DNA of 10,953 nucleotides, taken from positions 171,331-182,283 of the forward strand of contig DBQY01000016.1 of NCBI GenBank assembly GCA_002305805.1, in the 5' to 3' direction. The notes under the pieces were generated by a model, which did not search any database, had not been told where the DNA came from, and worked only from the letters and a program-made list of their open reading frames with translations. This document shows positions 2,845 through 10,953 of the stretch, one piece after another. This DNA comes from Atopobium sp. UBA1382. GTDB lineage: Bacteria; Actinomycetota; Coriobacteriia; Coriobacteriales; Atopobiaceae. The position numbers and the translations under genes are program-made. The first letter of the stretch is position 1. Every line of letters starts with the position of its first letter.

Positions 2845-4191
2845 ATGGACGTAGCGATATCTATTGTGGTCACTTTCCTGCTCACGTTGGCCAACGGCTA
2901 TTTCTCGATGTCCGAGCTTGCCGTAGTGAGCGCAAAGAGGGCAGTTCTCGAGCCGGAGGCTGAGGAGGGTGACCGCAAGGCGCGCGCCGCCCTTGACCTC
3001 GGCTCTAACTCCGAGCAGTTCCTCGCCACCATTCAGGTTGCCATCACGCTTGTGGGATTTGCGTCCTCGGCGTTCGCGAGCACCAGCCTTTCCGACCCGT
3101 TGGGTGGCTGGTTCATGAGCCTCGGCATGCCCGAGGGTATTGCCGTTCCCCTGGCGCCCGTCATCATCACCCTCGCGGTCTCCTATCTCTCCATCGTCGT
3201 GGGCGAGCTGGTTCCCAAGCGCATCGCCCTCTCCGATGCGGAGCGCACGGCCAAGTCGGTCGCCGGTCCCATCCGCGGCTTTATGACCATCGCCCGCCCG
3301 CTGGTCTGGCTTACCGCTAAGTCCGCGAACGGGCTTTCGGCTCTCTTGGGCATCAAGTCTGCTGACGAGCGTGACAGCGTCTCCGAGGAGGAGATCAAGT
3401 ACATGGTGGCCGACGCCGACGAGCTCTCCGACCAGGAGAAGTCGATGATTCACGAGGTCATCGAGCTCGGCGACACCATCGCTCGCGAGGTCATGGTCCC
3501 GCGCGTGGACATGACCGCCGTCGAGGACACCATGGCCCTCTCCGAGGTTCTGGCCATCATGCGCCGCACCGGCTACTCGCGCATCCCCGTCTACCACGAG
3601 TCCGTCGACCGCATCGTCGGCATCGCCCACATCAAGGACATCATCAGCCCCATCCTCGACGAGGGCCGTGCCTCCGACCCCGTTGCCCGCCACGCGCGCA
3701 CGGCGGACTTCATCCCGGATACCAAGGACATCATCCCGCTTCTCTCCGAGATGCAGTCCAGCCACGATCAGATGGTCATCGTCGTGGACGAGTACGGCGG
3801 CACGGCCGGCGTCATCACGATCGAGGACATCGTCGAGGAGGTCGTCGGAGAGATCGAGGACGAGTTTGACCCGGACAACAAGTACCTCACGCAGCTCTCT
3901 GAACGCGAGTGGCTTGTTGACGGTCGCTTCTCCATCGATGATGCCATCGAGCTCGGCTGGCCCGTCGAGGACTCCGAGGAGTTCGAGACCATCGCCGGCT
4001 TCGTCCTTGACCAAGCGGACAAGCTTCCGCGCCCCGGTGATGTTTTCACAAAGGATGGGTATCAGTTCCGTGTGCAGTCCATGCGCGGACGTCGCCTCTC
4101 GATGCTGCGCGTCGTTGCCCCCGAGCCTCCGACGGAGGCCGATGCCGACGACGCTGACGGAGAGAAGCGGCCGGCCCCCGCTAAGGAGTAG
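2845..4191 (+). CDS. CNNM/CorC (HlyC) family membrane transport protein
   Basis: This 448-residue protein has the standard architecture and length of the family. Residues 1 to about 185 are the DUF21/CNNM membrane domain, with hydrophobic segments near 3-20, 60-80 and 98-124, the early SMSELAVVSAKR element (21-32) and the GELVPKR motif (120-126). Residues about 210-335 are a CBS pair beginning with the usual EVMVPRVDM (215-223) and including VDEYGGTAGVITIED (314-328). Residues about 345-423 are the CorC_HlyC domain. Family members are linked to Mg2+ export or homeostasis, with the CBS pair sensing nucleotides; older 'hemolysin' names are misleading. The acidic C-terminal tail (about 426-448) is low complexity. 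The start is set by alignment of the N-terminal helix with the family. AGGAGG (2825-2830) lies 14 bases upstream, longer than usual, and no other in-frame start lies closer to it. The gene appears to be single, since the next one has its own -10-like box. Confidence 0.93.
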   Translation: MDVAISIVVTFLLTLANGYFSMSELAVVSAKRAVLEPEAEEGDRKARAALDLGSNSEQFLATIQVAITLVGFASSAFASTSLSDPLGGWFMSLGMPEGIAVPLAPVIITLAVSYLSIVVGELVPKRIALSDAERTAKSVAGPIRGFMTIARPLVWLTAKSANGLSALLGIKSADERDSVSEEEIKYMVADADELSDQEKSMIHEVIELGDTIAREVMVPRVDMTAVEDTMALSEVLAIMRRTGYSRIPVYHESVDRIVGIAHIKDIISPILDEGRASDPVARHARTADFIPDTKDIIPLLSEMQSSHDQMVIVVDEYGGTAGVITIEDIVEEVVGEIEDEFDPDNKYLTQLSEREWLVDGRFSIDDAIELGWPVEDSEEFETIAGFVLDQADKLPRPGDVFTKDGYQFRVQSMRGRRLSMLRVVAPEPPTEADADDADGEKRPAPAKE

Positions 4192-4211
4192 GCCCACGCG
4201 CCGAGTTTCAC

Positions 4212-4217
4212 TACAAT
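4212..4217 (+). promoter_or_regulatory. Possible -10 box for the three-gene envelope operon
   Basis: TACAAT at 4212-4217 matches the -10 consensus in five of six positions and lies 21 bases after the CorC-like stop codon. The predicted leader (about 4224-4267) holds a GGCCC/GGGCC hairpin (4231-4235 with 4242-4246) without a T-run, then GAGGGAG before the ATG at 4268. No terminator separates the preceding gene, so read-through is also possible. Confidence 0.45.
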
Positions 4218-4267
4218 GAGGGAAAAGGCAGGCCCTTTCGCGGGCCGCGACTGAGAGGGAGCCTCAA

Positions 4268-5008
4268 ATGGCTCAGCTGTTCGACTTCAAGAAGGTCACG
4301 ATCGGCCCGCGCGCCCTTGTCGCCGCGGTGGAGCTTGCGCCGAGCGCGCCGCTTCTGACCAGCGAGGATCCGGAGGCAACCGAGCTCGTCCTCGAGCTCC
4401 TGCCCGACCTGCGCGACCACGTCTGCCTTGGCGACGTGGCTCCCACCTTTGGAGAGGTTGCTCCGGACACCGAGCTCGCCCACCTGCTCGAGCACGTGAC
4501 CGTGGAGCTGCTTGCCCAGACCGACATCGCCGGCGACGTCTCCTGTGGCCAGACCACCCAGGTTGACGAGCGCATCTACGAGATTACGCTTAACTGCCCC
4601 GATGACGTCCTCGTCGTTGGGGCGCTGTCGAGCGCCGCCTGGATTCTGCAGTGGGCCTTCTCGGGCGGCGGCGAGCCTCGTCCCGATGTCGATGCCATCG
4701 TCGGCGGTCTCGTGAGCCTCGTTGAGAGCCTCTCCGACCAGGTCGTCGAGGACGATGTCGTTGAGGAAGTGTCCGAGCCGGAGTCCGAGGCTGGGGAGGC
4801 TTTCGCCCCGGAGCCCGAACCCGAGCTGGAGCCCGAACCCGAGGCCGAGGAGGCTTCCGCGCCTGAGCCGGAACCCGAGCCCGAGCCGGAACCGGAGCCA
4901 GAACCCGAGCCCGAGCCCGAGCTGGAGCCGGAACCCGAGCCCGAGCCCCCCGCCCCGAGCACCTGGGACATGGACGACAACGTCCCGCGTCCCCATCTCG
5001 TTCGATAA
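4268..5008 (+). CDS. Cyanophycin-synthetase N-domain-like protein with Pro-Glu tail
   Basis: This 246-residue protein has two parts. Residues 1 to about 135 resemble the N-terminal domain of cyanophycin synthetase (CphA): [13 protein letters not shown] (72-84), then a GD-V-S-C-G-Q-T segment (89-96), then YEITLNC (104-110). These correspond to the family's 'HLIEHVALELQ ... GFGRTR ... Y-V-V-EY' run. The ATP-grasp and Mur-ligase-like catalytic domains of CphA are absent, so the protein cannot make cyanophycin by itself. Residues about 136-180 are an acidic linker, and 181-228 are almost pure Pro-Glu dipeptides, probably a stiff extended rod. The last 18 residues (STWDMDDN...) are a short conserved-looking cap. 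No signal peptide is seen, so a cytoplasmic location is likely. The ATG at 4268 has GAGGGAG seven bases or fewer before it. The YtxH-like gene follows 48 bases on. A scaffold or binding role is inference; the domain match is by eye. Confidence 0.85.
4808..4951 (+). repeat. Pro-Glu coding hexanucleotide repeat
   Basis: About 48 codons alternate GAG/GAA with CCC/CCG, with a few interruptions (Leu, Ala, Ser codons). This makes a degenerate 6-base tandem repeat inside the CphA-like gene. The mixed use of synonymous codons limits perfect repetition, which suggests selection for the peptide rather than recent DNA expansion. Length variation in steps of six bases would keep the frame. Confidence 0.9.
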
Positions 5009-5056
5009 CAGGCGCGTCGCCCGCGCCAGGCAAGTCCGCATCGACAGGAGGTACCA

Positions 5057-5506
5057 ATGAACAAGAAGACGGTTGGCTTCATCTTTGGAAGCATCGTCGG
5101 CGCTGCCGCCGGCGTCGTTGCGGGCGTCATGCTCGCCCCGCGCTCCGGCGCCGAAAGCCGCGCCATGGCGGCCGACGCCATGAACGACGCCTGGGATTCC
5201 GCCGTTGACACCTACGAGCGCGGCGCCAGCGTCGTGAACGACAAGTTCAACGCCGTTCGCCCCACCGTTGACGCCAAGACCGACGAGCTTCGCGCCAAGG
5301 TCGACCTTGCCCGCGAGCGCATGGACCAGCTGCGCGACTCCCTCTCCGAGGCCGTCGCCACCGCCTCCGACCAGGTCAAGGACGCCGCCTCCGCCGTCGC
5401 CGACCGCGTCTCCGCGATGACCGACGCCGCCCCGGCCGCCGAGAAGGCCGCCGAGAACGTTCACGTCGAGGTCGTCGAGGTCGACGAAGAGACCCCCGAG
5501 GCCTAG
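5057..5506 (+). CDS. YtxH-like membrane-anchored protein
   Basis: This 149-residue protein starts with MNKKTVGFIFGSIVGAAAG, a glycine-rich hydrophobic segment (residues about 6-27) with GxxxG spacing, followed by LAPRSGAE (26-33). That is the signature of the YtxH family (APxxGxE/R after the helix). The rest is a long Ala-rich amphipathic helix or coiled coil (about 35-130) with an acidic end. YtxH proteins are small, abundant, often stress-induced envelope proteins of unknown biochemical role. The N-terminal segment probably anchors it in the membrane with the helix in the cytoplasm or at the membrane face. AGGAGG at 5046-5051 lies five bases before the ATG. The PRC-barrel gene begins three bases after its stop, so the two are almost surely co-transcribed. 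Confidence 0.9.
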   Translation: MNKKTVGFIFGSIVGAAAGVVAGVMLAPRSGAESRAMAADAMNDAWDSAVDTYERGASVVNDKFNAVRPTVDAKTDELRAKVDLARERMDQLRDSLSEAVATASDQVKDAASAVADRVSAMTDAAPAAEKAAENVHVEVVEVDEETPEA

Positions 5507-9218: not shown

Positions 9219-10619
9219 ATGCCCGTTGTCGCCGCGTTTGCCGTTCCGCATCCGCCGCTGATCGTCCCCGGGGTGGGGCGTGGCCGCGAGAGGGACATCG
9301 CGGCGACCGTTGTGGCCTACGAGGAGGTCGCGCGGCGCGTGACGGAGCTCGCGCCGGACACGCTGGTGATATCAAGTCCGCATACGACCTCCTATCTTGA
9401 CTACCTGCACATTTCTCCGGGCCGGGGCGCCCACGGGGACTTTCGCGACTTTGGTGACCGCGCGGACGGCTCCGACGTCTCCTATGACGTCGAGCTCGTC
9501 CGGGAGCTCGAGGGCGCGGCGGAGGCCACCGGCATCCCGGCGGGCACGCGCGGCGAGCGCGAAGCGCGTCTGGACTGGGGCGTGCTCGTGCCGCTCCATT
9601 TCATCCAGGCGCGCTGCCAGGGCTTCAAGGTGGTGCGCATGGGACTCGCGGGCTTCTCGCCGCTCGAGCACTACCGGGTGGGCGCCCTCGTGCAGCAGGC
9701 GGCCGCGCGCCTGGGCCGGCGCGTCGTCTACGTGGCCTCCGGCGACCTCTCGCACAAGCTCGCAGCGGACGGCCCCTACGGGTACGCGCCTGACGGCCCG
9801 GTCTTTGACGAGGCCGTCTGCGAGGCCTTTGCCTCGGGGGACTTCCTGCGGCTGCTCACGATGGACCCCGGCCTTTGCGAGCGCGCCGCCGAGTGCGGCC
9901 TGCGCTCGTTCCAGATCATGGCCGGCGCGCTCGACGGAACGCCCGTCCGCGCGGAGCTGCTCTCGCACGAGGGCCCGTTTGGCGTGGGATACGGGGTCGC
10001 CGCGTTCACGCCGGTCGGCCCGGAGGCATCCGATCCCGACCGCCGCTTCGAGGGCGCCTACCTTGCCTGGCACGAGAGCGCGCTCGCGCAGGCGCGCGCT
10101 GCCGAGGACCCGTATGTCCGCCTGGCCCGCGCCTCGCTGGAGCATCGCGTGCGCACGGGTACGACGCTGCCGCTGCCCGCGGACCTGCCCGCCGAGCTCA
10201 CGGACCGCCGAGCCGGCGCGTTTGTCTCCCTCAAGAAGGACGGTCGACTGCGCGGCTGTATTGGCACCATCGCGCCCGTGCGTGCGAGCCTCGCGGAGGA
10301 GATCGTGGAGAACGCGGTCTCGGCAGGCTGCCACGACCCGCGCTTCTCGCCCGTGCGCGAGGACGAGCTGACGGAGCTGGTCTACGACGTGGACGTCCTG
10401 GGCGAGCCGGAGCCCGTGGGAGACCGCTCGGAGCTGGACCCGGCGCGCTATGGCGTGATCGTGAGCACGCCGGACGGTCGGCGCGGCCTCCTGCTGCCGG
10501 CACTCGACGGCGTGGACACCGTGGACGAGCAGCTCCAGATCGCGGCGCGCAAGGGTGGCATCTCGCTGGGCGAGAAGGGCGTGCGCCTGGAGCGCTTCGA
10601 GGTGGTGCGTCACCTGTGA
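9219..10619 (+). CDS. amrA: AmmeMemoRadiSam system protein A: LigB-like domain fused to AMMECR1
   Basis: This 466-residue protein has two domains. Residues 1 to about 267 resemble the LigB-type class III extradiol dioxygenase/MEMO fold. PHPPLIVPGVG (10-20) supplies H11, SSPHTTSY (52-59) supplies H55, SGDLSHKL (174-181) holds D176 and H179, and LLSHEGPFGVGYG (247-259) holds E251. These are candidate metal or active-site residues. Residues about 295-466 are an AMMECR1 domain with the hallmark LRGCIGT (344-350), DPRFSPV (373-379) and GRRGLLLP (420-427). The family is found beside a separate radical SAM enzyme, as here. It is a stand-in for both MEMO and AMMECR1, whose human homologues (MEMO1, AMMECR1) are also poorly understood. 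The biochemical product is unknown to me. The ATG at 9219 has GGGGAGG five bases upstream. Its stop overlaps the next start (GTGA). The symbol is provisional. Confidence 0.92.
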   Translation: MPVVAAFAVPHPPLIVPGVGRGRERDIAATVVAYEEVARRVTELAPDTLVISSPHTTSYLDYLHISPGRGAHGDFRDFGDRADGSDVSYDVELVRELEGAAEATGIPAGTRGEREARLDWGVLVPLHFIQARCQGFKVVRMGLAGFSPLEHYRVGALVQQAAARLGRRVVYVASGDLSHKLAADGPYGYAPDGPVFDEAVCEAFASGDFLRLLTMDPGLCERAAECGLRSFQIMAGALDGTPVRAELLSHEGPFGVGYGVAAFTPVGPEASDPDRRFEGAYLAWHESALAQARAAEDPYVRLARASLEHRVRTGTTLPLPADLPAELTDRRAGAFVSLKKDGRLRGCIGTIAPVRASLAEEIVENAVSAGCHDPRFSPVREDELTELVYDVDVLGEPEPVGDRSELDPARYGVIVSTPDGRRGLLLPALDGVDTVDEQLQIAARKGGISLGEKGVRLERFEVVRHL

Positions 10620-10953
10620 GCGGTACGGCGACGTGCAACGTCTGTCCGCGGCACTGCCGGCTCGCCCCGGGCGCGCTGGGGGCGTGCCGGGCGCGGCGCA
10701 ACGTGGGCGGCAGCGTGGTGTCCCTGTCCTACGGACGGGTGACCTCGCTCGCGCTGGATCCCGTGGAGAAGAAGCCCCTTGCACGCTTTCATCCGGGCTC
10801 CTACCTGCTCTCCGTTGGAAGCTACGGCTGCAATCTCGCATGTCCGTTCTGCCAGAACCACCAGATCTCCCAGGCTGGCGAGAAGGACGTGGGGTGGCGA
10901 GAGCTTTCGCCGGAGGCGCTCGTGGCGATTACGGAGGACGCGCGCCGGCGCGA
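10616..10953 (+). CDS. amrS: AmmeMemoRadiSam system radical SAM enzyme, 5' part (cut by window end)
   Basis: The reading frame starts with GTG at 10616, overlapping the previous stop codon by four bases (GTGA), and runs open to the window edge: 112 codons plus two bases. The overlap implies translational coupling. The translated start TCNVCPRHCRL (6-16) with a further Cys at 24 gives a Cys-rich N-terminus (C7, C10, C14, C24). DPVEKKPLARFHPGS (48-62) is a family-typical stretch, and GCNLACPFCQNHQIS (71-85) is the CxxxCxxC radical SAM cluster motif (C72, C76, C79). The family is related to pyruvate formate-lyase activating enzymes and is normally a little over 300 residues, so about two thirds lies beyond the window. 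The enzyme would act with the fused LigB/AMMECR1 protein on an unknown substrate. It is not a separate pseudogene; it is only truncated by the window. Confidence 0.93.
   Translation, partial: MSGTATCNVCPRHCRLAPGALGACRARRNVGGSVVSLSYGRVTSLALDPVEKKPLARFHPGSYLLSVGSYGCNLACPFCQNHQISQAGEKDVGWRELSPEALVAITEDARRR

Follow-up and report, generated by a model that had tools for sequence, protein, structure and literature searches.

RESULTS

The gene pair at the end of the window

The window analysed here is a stretch of 10,953 nucleotides (positions 171,331 to 182,283 of contig DBQY01000016.1) within the 2.0-Mb draft genome of Atopobium sp. UBA1382 (G000), and it ends with two overlapping genes, one encoding a fusion of a LigB-type domain with an AMMECR1 domain and the other the beginning of a radical S-adenosylmethionine (SAM) enzyme (Table 1). 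An earlier note, made from the sequence alone, had read these three families and named the pair an AmmeMemoRadiSam module. Domain models confirm the families: PF02900 (LigB) matches the fusion with 129.6 bits (cut-off 26.3), PF01871 (AMMECR1) with 144.9 bits (cut-off 25), and TIGR04337 the radical SAM protein as described below. The name is right for the system and inexact for one component, since the fusion passes the model of the A component (TIGR04335, 122.9 bits, cut-off 99) but stays under that of the B component, Memo (TIGR04336, 22.1 bits, cut-off 26), and PF01875 (Memo) has no match anywhere in the genome. Because a LigB domain, here fused to A, fills the B slot, the pair is assigned to the system in its LigB-type form only, and this we regard as almost certain.

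The system is already named in databases, the pair is common and this copy is typical. Among named proteins, the closest relatives belong to Olsenella (P0009 with 86% and P0017 with 81% identity), which suggests an Olsenella-like bacterium; P0009 has the NCBI name 'AmmeMemoRadiSam system protein A'. There are at least 8000 candidate relatives at E ≤ 0.001, and among the 120 matches listed, 119 have both PF02900 and PF01871.

Table 1. Positions in the window of the two genes and of the domains and residues discussed in the text.
Feature	Position	Strand	Remarks
LigB-AMMECR1 fusion gene	9219..10619	+	Open reading frame, 466 residues; AmmeMemoRadiSam protein A preceded by a LigB domain
LigB-type domain (class III extradiol dioxygenase fold)	9234..9998	+	Residues 6-260
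His11, predicted metal ligand	9249..9251	+	Aligned with His13 in the beta chain of 2-amino-5-chlorophenol dioxygenase
His55, predicted metal ligand	9381..9383	+	Aligns with His62; 55/55 rows
Glu225 then Cys226	9891..9896	+	Glu225 aligns with ligand Glu251
AMMECR1 domain	10116..10607	+	Residues 300-463
LRGCIG motif of AMMECR1	10248..10265	+	Residues 344-349
GTGA, radical SAM start inside fusion stop	10616..10619	+	Four-base overlap of start GTG (10616-10618) and stop TGA (10617-10619)
AmmeMemoRadiSam radical SAM gene, 5′ part	10616..10953	+	Cut by window end; remainder in L006 past 57 N
Four-cysteine stretch at radical SAM N-terminus	10634..10687	+	Residues 7, 10, 14, 24; Cys invariant, 18/18 aligned relatives
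Radical SAM cluster motif CxxxCxxC	10829..10852	+	Residues 72, 76, 79; invariant, 18/18 aligned relatives

The radical SAM piece in the window, the first 112 residues, matches positions 10-114 of TIGR04337 with 115.2 bits, which is below the cut-off of 220 because the piece is cut. A run of 57 N (L006:6285-6341) begins where the window stops. The rest of the gene, which the earlier note had proposed to look for downstream, is present past this run, where it matches TIGR04337 positions 168-288 and its stop ends at L006:6722. Split by the N, the two pieces score 112.1 and 94.1 bits in their own genome. Across the run, 53 TIGR04337 positions are absent over 95 bases and the reading frames disagree, and therefore the length of 57 N is not to scale; the run may be an assembly gap or a mask. 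Complete copies from the same genus exceed the cut-off (232.5 bits in G002, 244.6 in G030 and 229.9 in G020).

Co-occurrence and joint loss

The earlier note had also named an absence of co-occurrence across genomes as a result that would refute it; the two genes in fact co-occur strongly in samples of the order, class and phylum. Within the genus, the radical SAM gene was found in 28 of 31 genomes (E < 1e-50) and the fusion in the same 28 (E < 1e-160), split across two contigs in G022 and across two frames in G025. As for the other three, G004 shows no fusion and a weak, paralogue-like radical SAM match, G015 retains the AMMECR1 end plus a short radical SAM start, and G017 retains LigB pieces with stops and has no radical SAM match. 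On either side of the lost pair, G015 and G017 remain alignable with G003 and G021, which keep it. In a tree of gpsA, the gene upstream of the fusion, from 28 genomes, losers stand beside keepers (G015/G003, G017/G021 and G004/G012), and three changes, that is, three joint losses in the genus, are forced by well-supported branches. The tree is built on one gene, which falls into two deeply divergent types, and the branches of G004 and G012 are long, so that the third loss is the least sure.

The 53 genomes of the order, taken from the draw for the class, were scored by counting radical SAM matches from 200 bits upwards, along with the split copy in G000: 33 have both parts, one (G217) the fusion only, none the radical SAM gene only and 19 neither. 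By genus, 16 of the 26 have both throughout, six have neither and four are mixed. The two genes are close and on the same strand in 32 of the 33 genomes with both, and 102 kb apart in G201. By the same rule, the 119 genomes of the class divide into 83 with both, 3 with the fusion only, 2 with the radical SAM gene only and 31 with neither; at the curated 220 bits the numbers become 80, 6, 1 and 32. For the 149 genomes of the phylum, at 220 bits and with G000 added, they are 52, 5 (fusion part only), 9 and 83. Fisher tests on the phylum ignore kinship, and the argument leans on the repeated losses instead. The wide distribution that the earlier note stated was borne out by matches in control genomes of both bacteria and archaea. 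Among these controls, Methanosarcina acetivorans matches AMMECR1, Memo, LigB and the radical SAM model.

Fusion-only genomes make a weak case for a dispensable radical SAM gene, as G049, G074, G145 and G217 are drafts with relatives of the same genus or family that have it. In G124 (L190:3815-5820), and similarly in G037, G052, G103, G135 and G156, the radical SAM gene adjoins Memo and an AMMECR1 match is absent genome-wide. In G168 (L150), Memo, AMMECR1 and radical SAM matches stand in a row, the last covering model positions 1-80 only.

Conservation of the overlap

The GTGA overlap described by the earlier note is real and is kept in the genus. Of the 28 congeners with both genes, 27 have an in-frame start codon, ATG or GTG, that shares four bases with the end of the fusion gene (all 25 genomes testable in one analysis, plus G022 and G025), indicating an overlap beyond chance. 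Between the stop and the first Cys codon there may be as few as 14 or as many as 59 bases, and yet the start with the four-base overlap persists; G010, G019 and G026 have a second possible start slightly downstream. The lone exception is G020, where an open reading frame of 488 residues with SLFN_AlbA_2 and HATPase_c_4 domains (L187:5341-6807) separates the two genes, the sole such break among the 28, and even there the fusion still ends in GTGA.

For a wider comparison, the best 80 of 572 confirmed radical SAM loci were taken with flanks of up to 8 kb. Among the 49 with AMMECR1 upstream of the radical SAM gene, a possible start lies at -4 in 12, at -8 in 10, at -1 in one and elsewhere in 26. 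Overlap coupling is thus characteristic of this lineage and not of the AmmeMemoRadiSam system. The proposal that the two products are made in step is thus plausible for the genus; against a general validity, among the 53 phylum genomes with AMMECR1 and a full or partial radical SAM gene, 40 have the latter at a large distance or on a different contig, and 13 of the 80 wider loci have no AMMECR1 in 8 kb on both sides. The functional coupling of the two genes, on the other hand, is upheld by co-presence, co-loss and the conserved overlap. Given this joint loss and the overlapping reading frames, the fusion and the radical SAM enzyme very likely act in one process.

Predicted metal site, LRGCIG motif and radical SAM fold

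The LigB domain shares its fold and metal triad with class III extradiol dioxygenases (LigB; 2-aminophenol 1,6-dioxygenase, 3vsg/3vsh; TK2203, 5hee). His11, His55 and Glu225 align with His13, His62 and Glu251 of 3vsg_B, a 2-His-1-Glu triad, and His13 of the 2-amino-5-chlorophenol dioxygenase beta chain is given as a metal ligand in the available excerpt of PMC11081632. In the 55 alignment rows covering these positions, His11 and Glu225 are invariant, as is His55, and Cys226 is Cys in 54. Glu251 of the fusion itself was considered as a ligand and rejected, as the 3vsg_B alignment indicates Glu225. The presence of this triad speaks for a catalytic role of the LigB site. The differences from the dioxygenases are the fusion to AMMECR1, the pairing with a radical SAM enzyme and the Cys after the Glu.

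This Cys also bears on the comparison with MEMO1 and prokaryotic Memo (PF01875). MEMO1 binds Fe through H49, H81 and C244 according to the same excerpt (PMC11081632). Cys226 falls in the column of Cys244 in three MAFFT modes and is shifted by three columns in hhalign; in the MAFFT alignment, with which hhalign disagrees, Met or Ala precedes the ligand Cys in 11 of 11 Memo rows, unlike the Glu found here.

In the AMMECR1 domain, all 55 rows agree on the R, the G, the C and the second G of LRGCIG. As the earlier note stated, two of the components have human relatives, MEMO1 and AMMECR1 (excerpts of PMC11081632 and PMC5502304), and the latter excerpt reports the identical six letters in human AMMECR1 and a patient variant that alters a Gly within them. 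The structures PH0010 (1vaj), MM0484 (1zq7) and ST0229 (1wsc) are AMMECR1-only chains deposited as function-unknown, in contrast to the fused form here.

In a structure model of a congener radical SAM protein, the nearest fold was the pyruvate formate-lyase activating enzyme (PFL-AE), with RlmN and TYW1 well below. The likeness consists in the radical SAM fold with CxxxCxxC. The N-terminal four-Cys stretch is additional and lies outside the alignment, and the G020 copy scores far under the cut-offs of two activase models (TIGR02493, 37.7 bits against 231.75; TIGR04041, 40.9 against 250.2).

Architecture elsewhere and gene neighbourhood

Nothing singles out the fused form. When shared open frames were judged by frame length and coordinates, 23 of the 57 AMMECR1 genes of the phylum share a frame with LigB and 16 adjoin LigB, 4 share a frame with Memo and 11 adjoin Memo, and 3 have neither beside them: those of G048 and G063 (both with Memo on another contig) and that of G112 (starting 297 bases from a contig end). 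AMMECR1 is present in 53 of the 80 wider loci, as 42 LigB fusions, 5 with separate LigB, 2 Memo fusions and 4 alone. The other 27, whose AMMECR1 status concerns the locus stretch only and not the genome, comprise 14 truncated on one or both sides and 13 with 8 kb to the left and right.

A repeated third partner, as the earlier note had suggested to seek, was not found: when open reading frames of at least 60 residues (longest-frame picker, peptides under 60 residues left out) were clustered by BLASTP and clusters in at least six loci were kept, no further gene occurred in more than 8 of the 80 loci. Of the four recurrent clusters, one holds the radical SAM protein (71 loci), another the fusion along with LigB or Memo encoded separately (49) and a third AMMECR1 as a gene of its own (10); the fourth consists of 10 apparent response regulators from 8 loci, at scattered distances. 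A glycyl radical enzyme did not emerge as a recurrent third gene in the 80 loci, whose neighbouring genes were not searched with a glycyl-radical family model.

In the genome of the window, 88 bases separate gpsA from the fusion, and a convergent gene ends 13 bases past the radical SAM gene. As a partner, gpsA was rejected, lying less than 200 bases from the fusion (by match ends) in only 8 of the 31 genomes. Within this one genus (G000-G030), gpsA occurs as two types that share about 40% identity, and one type alone was found beside the fusion. Genes for FUSC-like, NRAMP and MgtE-like transporters (L006:6736-11902) run on the opposite strand towards the radical SAM gene.

The fusion has no PADLOC match to a defence system; the G030 radical SAM protein has a weak viperin match in PADLOC (23.6 bits), probably reflecting the shared radical SAM fold. 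Among phage and plasmid records, none reaches a coverage of 80% of the fusion. A stand-alone AMMECR1 of 182 residues with the LRGCIG letters (L301:5968-6516) occurs in the uncultured phage LR756501.1 (735,411 bases), and likewise in LR756503.1; LR756501.1 had no match to one radical SAM and one Memo query. The record MT836786.1 (L302; 'UNVERIFIED' Bacteriophage sp., 8,758 bases, faecal clone) has a Memo match at 3918-4685 and a fusion match at 4305-5159, and may be bacterial DNA.

Elsewhere in the window, positions 4268-5008 encode a short protein in which a domain like the N-terminal one of cyanophycin synthetase (PF18921, 35.2 bits) precedes a long Glu-Pro repeat and the synthetase part is absent, and positions 1359-2450 an open reading frame of 363 residues with no Pfam, NCBIfam or PADLOC match.

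DISCUSSION

From the computed domains, conserved residues, predicted fold, co-loss and overlap, we infer a metal, an order of steps and a substrate as follows. The fusion would be a two-domain metalloenzyme working with its radical partner in one pathway for a small molecule or nucleobase, a reading to which we give a probability of about 0.45. Its LigB domain would bind Fe(II) or a similar metal through His11, His55 and Glu225; the substrate site would be formed or covered by the AMMECR1 domain and its LRGCIG motif. If the hosts are strict anaerobes, use of O2 by the LigB domain seems unlikely, and for this reason the metal may act as a Lewis acid or as an O2-free redox centre. The radical SAM enzyme would make a 5′-deoxyadenosyl radical for a C-H step on the substrate of the fusion, before or after the fusion acts, and this substrate would be a small molecule or nucleobase made elsewhere rather than a peptide encoded next door.

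The likeness to PFL-AE raises another explanation, in which the radical SAM enzyme modifies or radicalises the AMMECR1 domain of the fusion, for example at LRGCIG, and this domain then works with the LigB metal site without O2. We consider this rather unlikely, though the next most probable reading. To our knowledge, humans are without this radical SAM enzyme. The motif is reported to be intact in human AMMECR1 (excerpt of PMC5502304), which tells against its existing only as a radical SAM target. Further points against it are that RGCIG is kept in G145 and G074, where a full radical SAM gene was not found (their relatives have one, and assembly gaps are possible), that a Haloferax control has AMMECR1 and no radical SAM match, that scores to the named activases are so low, and that the genes so often lie apart in the phylum. 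Its furthest extension, in which the radical SAM enzyme activates its own operon mate at LRGCIG to drive O2-free LigB chemistry and human AMMECR1 and MEMO1 are the remains of two enzyme halves, is decidedly doubtful. It is likewise unlikely that the two proteins act in turn on a separate macromolecule, RNA or protein, encoded elsewhere, as the placing of RlmN and TYW1 well below PFL-AE and the lack of a neighbour in more than 8 of the 80 loci speak against it.

Far less probable is a role in metal handling without catalysis, with the fusion as a sensor or deliverer of iron, in line with the part in iron homeostasis that has been proposed for MEMO1. The Fe binding of MEMO1 (excerpt of PMC11081632) and the NRAMP and MgtE-like transporter genes downstream would suit such a role, but the dioxygenase-like residue set is invariant in 55 of 55 rows, and the transporter genes are on the opposite strand and absent from the four recurrent clusters. 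That the two genes are chance neighbours with no joint function, as the upstream gpsA appears to be, is hardly credible given their co-presence and repeated joint loss, even with the genes far apart.

In the literature searched, we found no publication giving the reaction of the AmmeMemoRadiSam system; the excerpt of PMC7159879 cites Burroughs et al. 2019 for Memo-Ammecr1 systems and their radical SAM enzyme. The interest lies in the system itself and not in this copy, as it spans bacteria and archaea and its human relatives are tied to disease (excerpts of PMC11081632 and PMC5502304). New here are the co-occurrence in the order and the joint losses in the genus, the conservation of the overlap, the survey of neighbours, the radical SAM fold, and the metal site with its adjoining Cys. 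What is gained is a compact form of two proteins that disappear jointly, for which a third partner is not evident and particular residues can be named, and this makes a joint pathway and self-activation separable. If self-activation in its furthest extension were true, the Gly changed in the human AMMECR1 patient variant (excerpt of PMC5502304) would lie in what was once the active motif of the enzyme.
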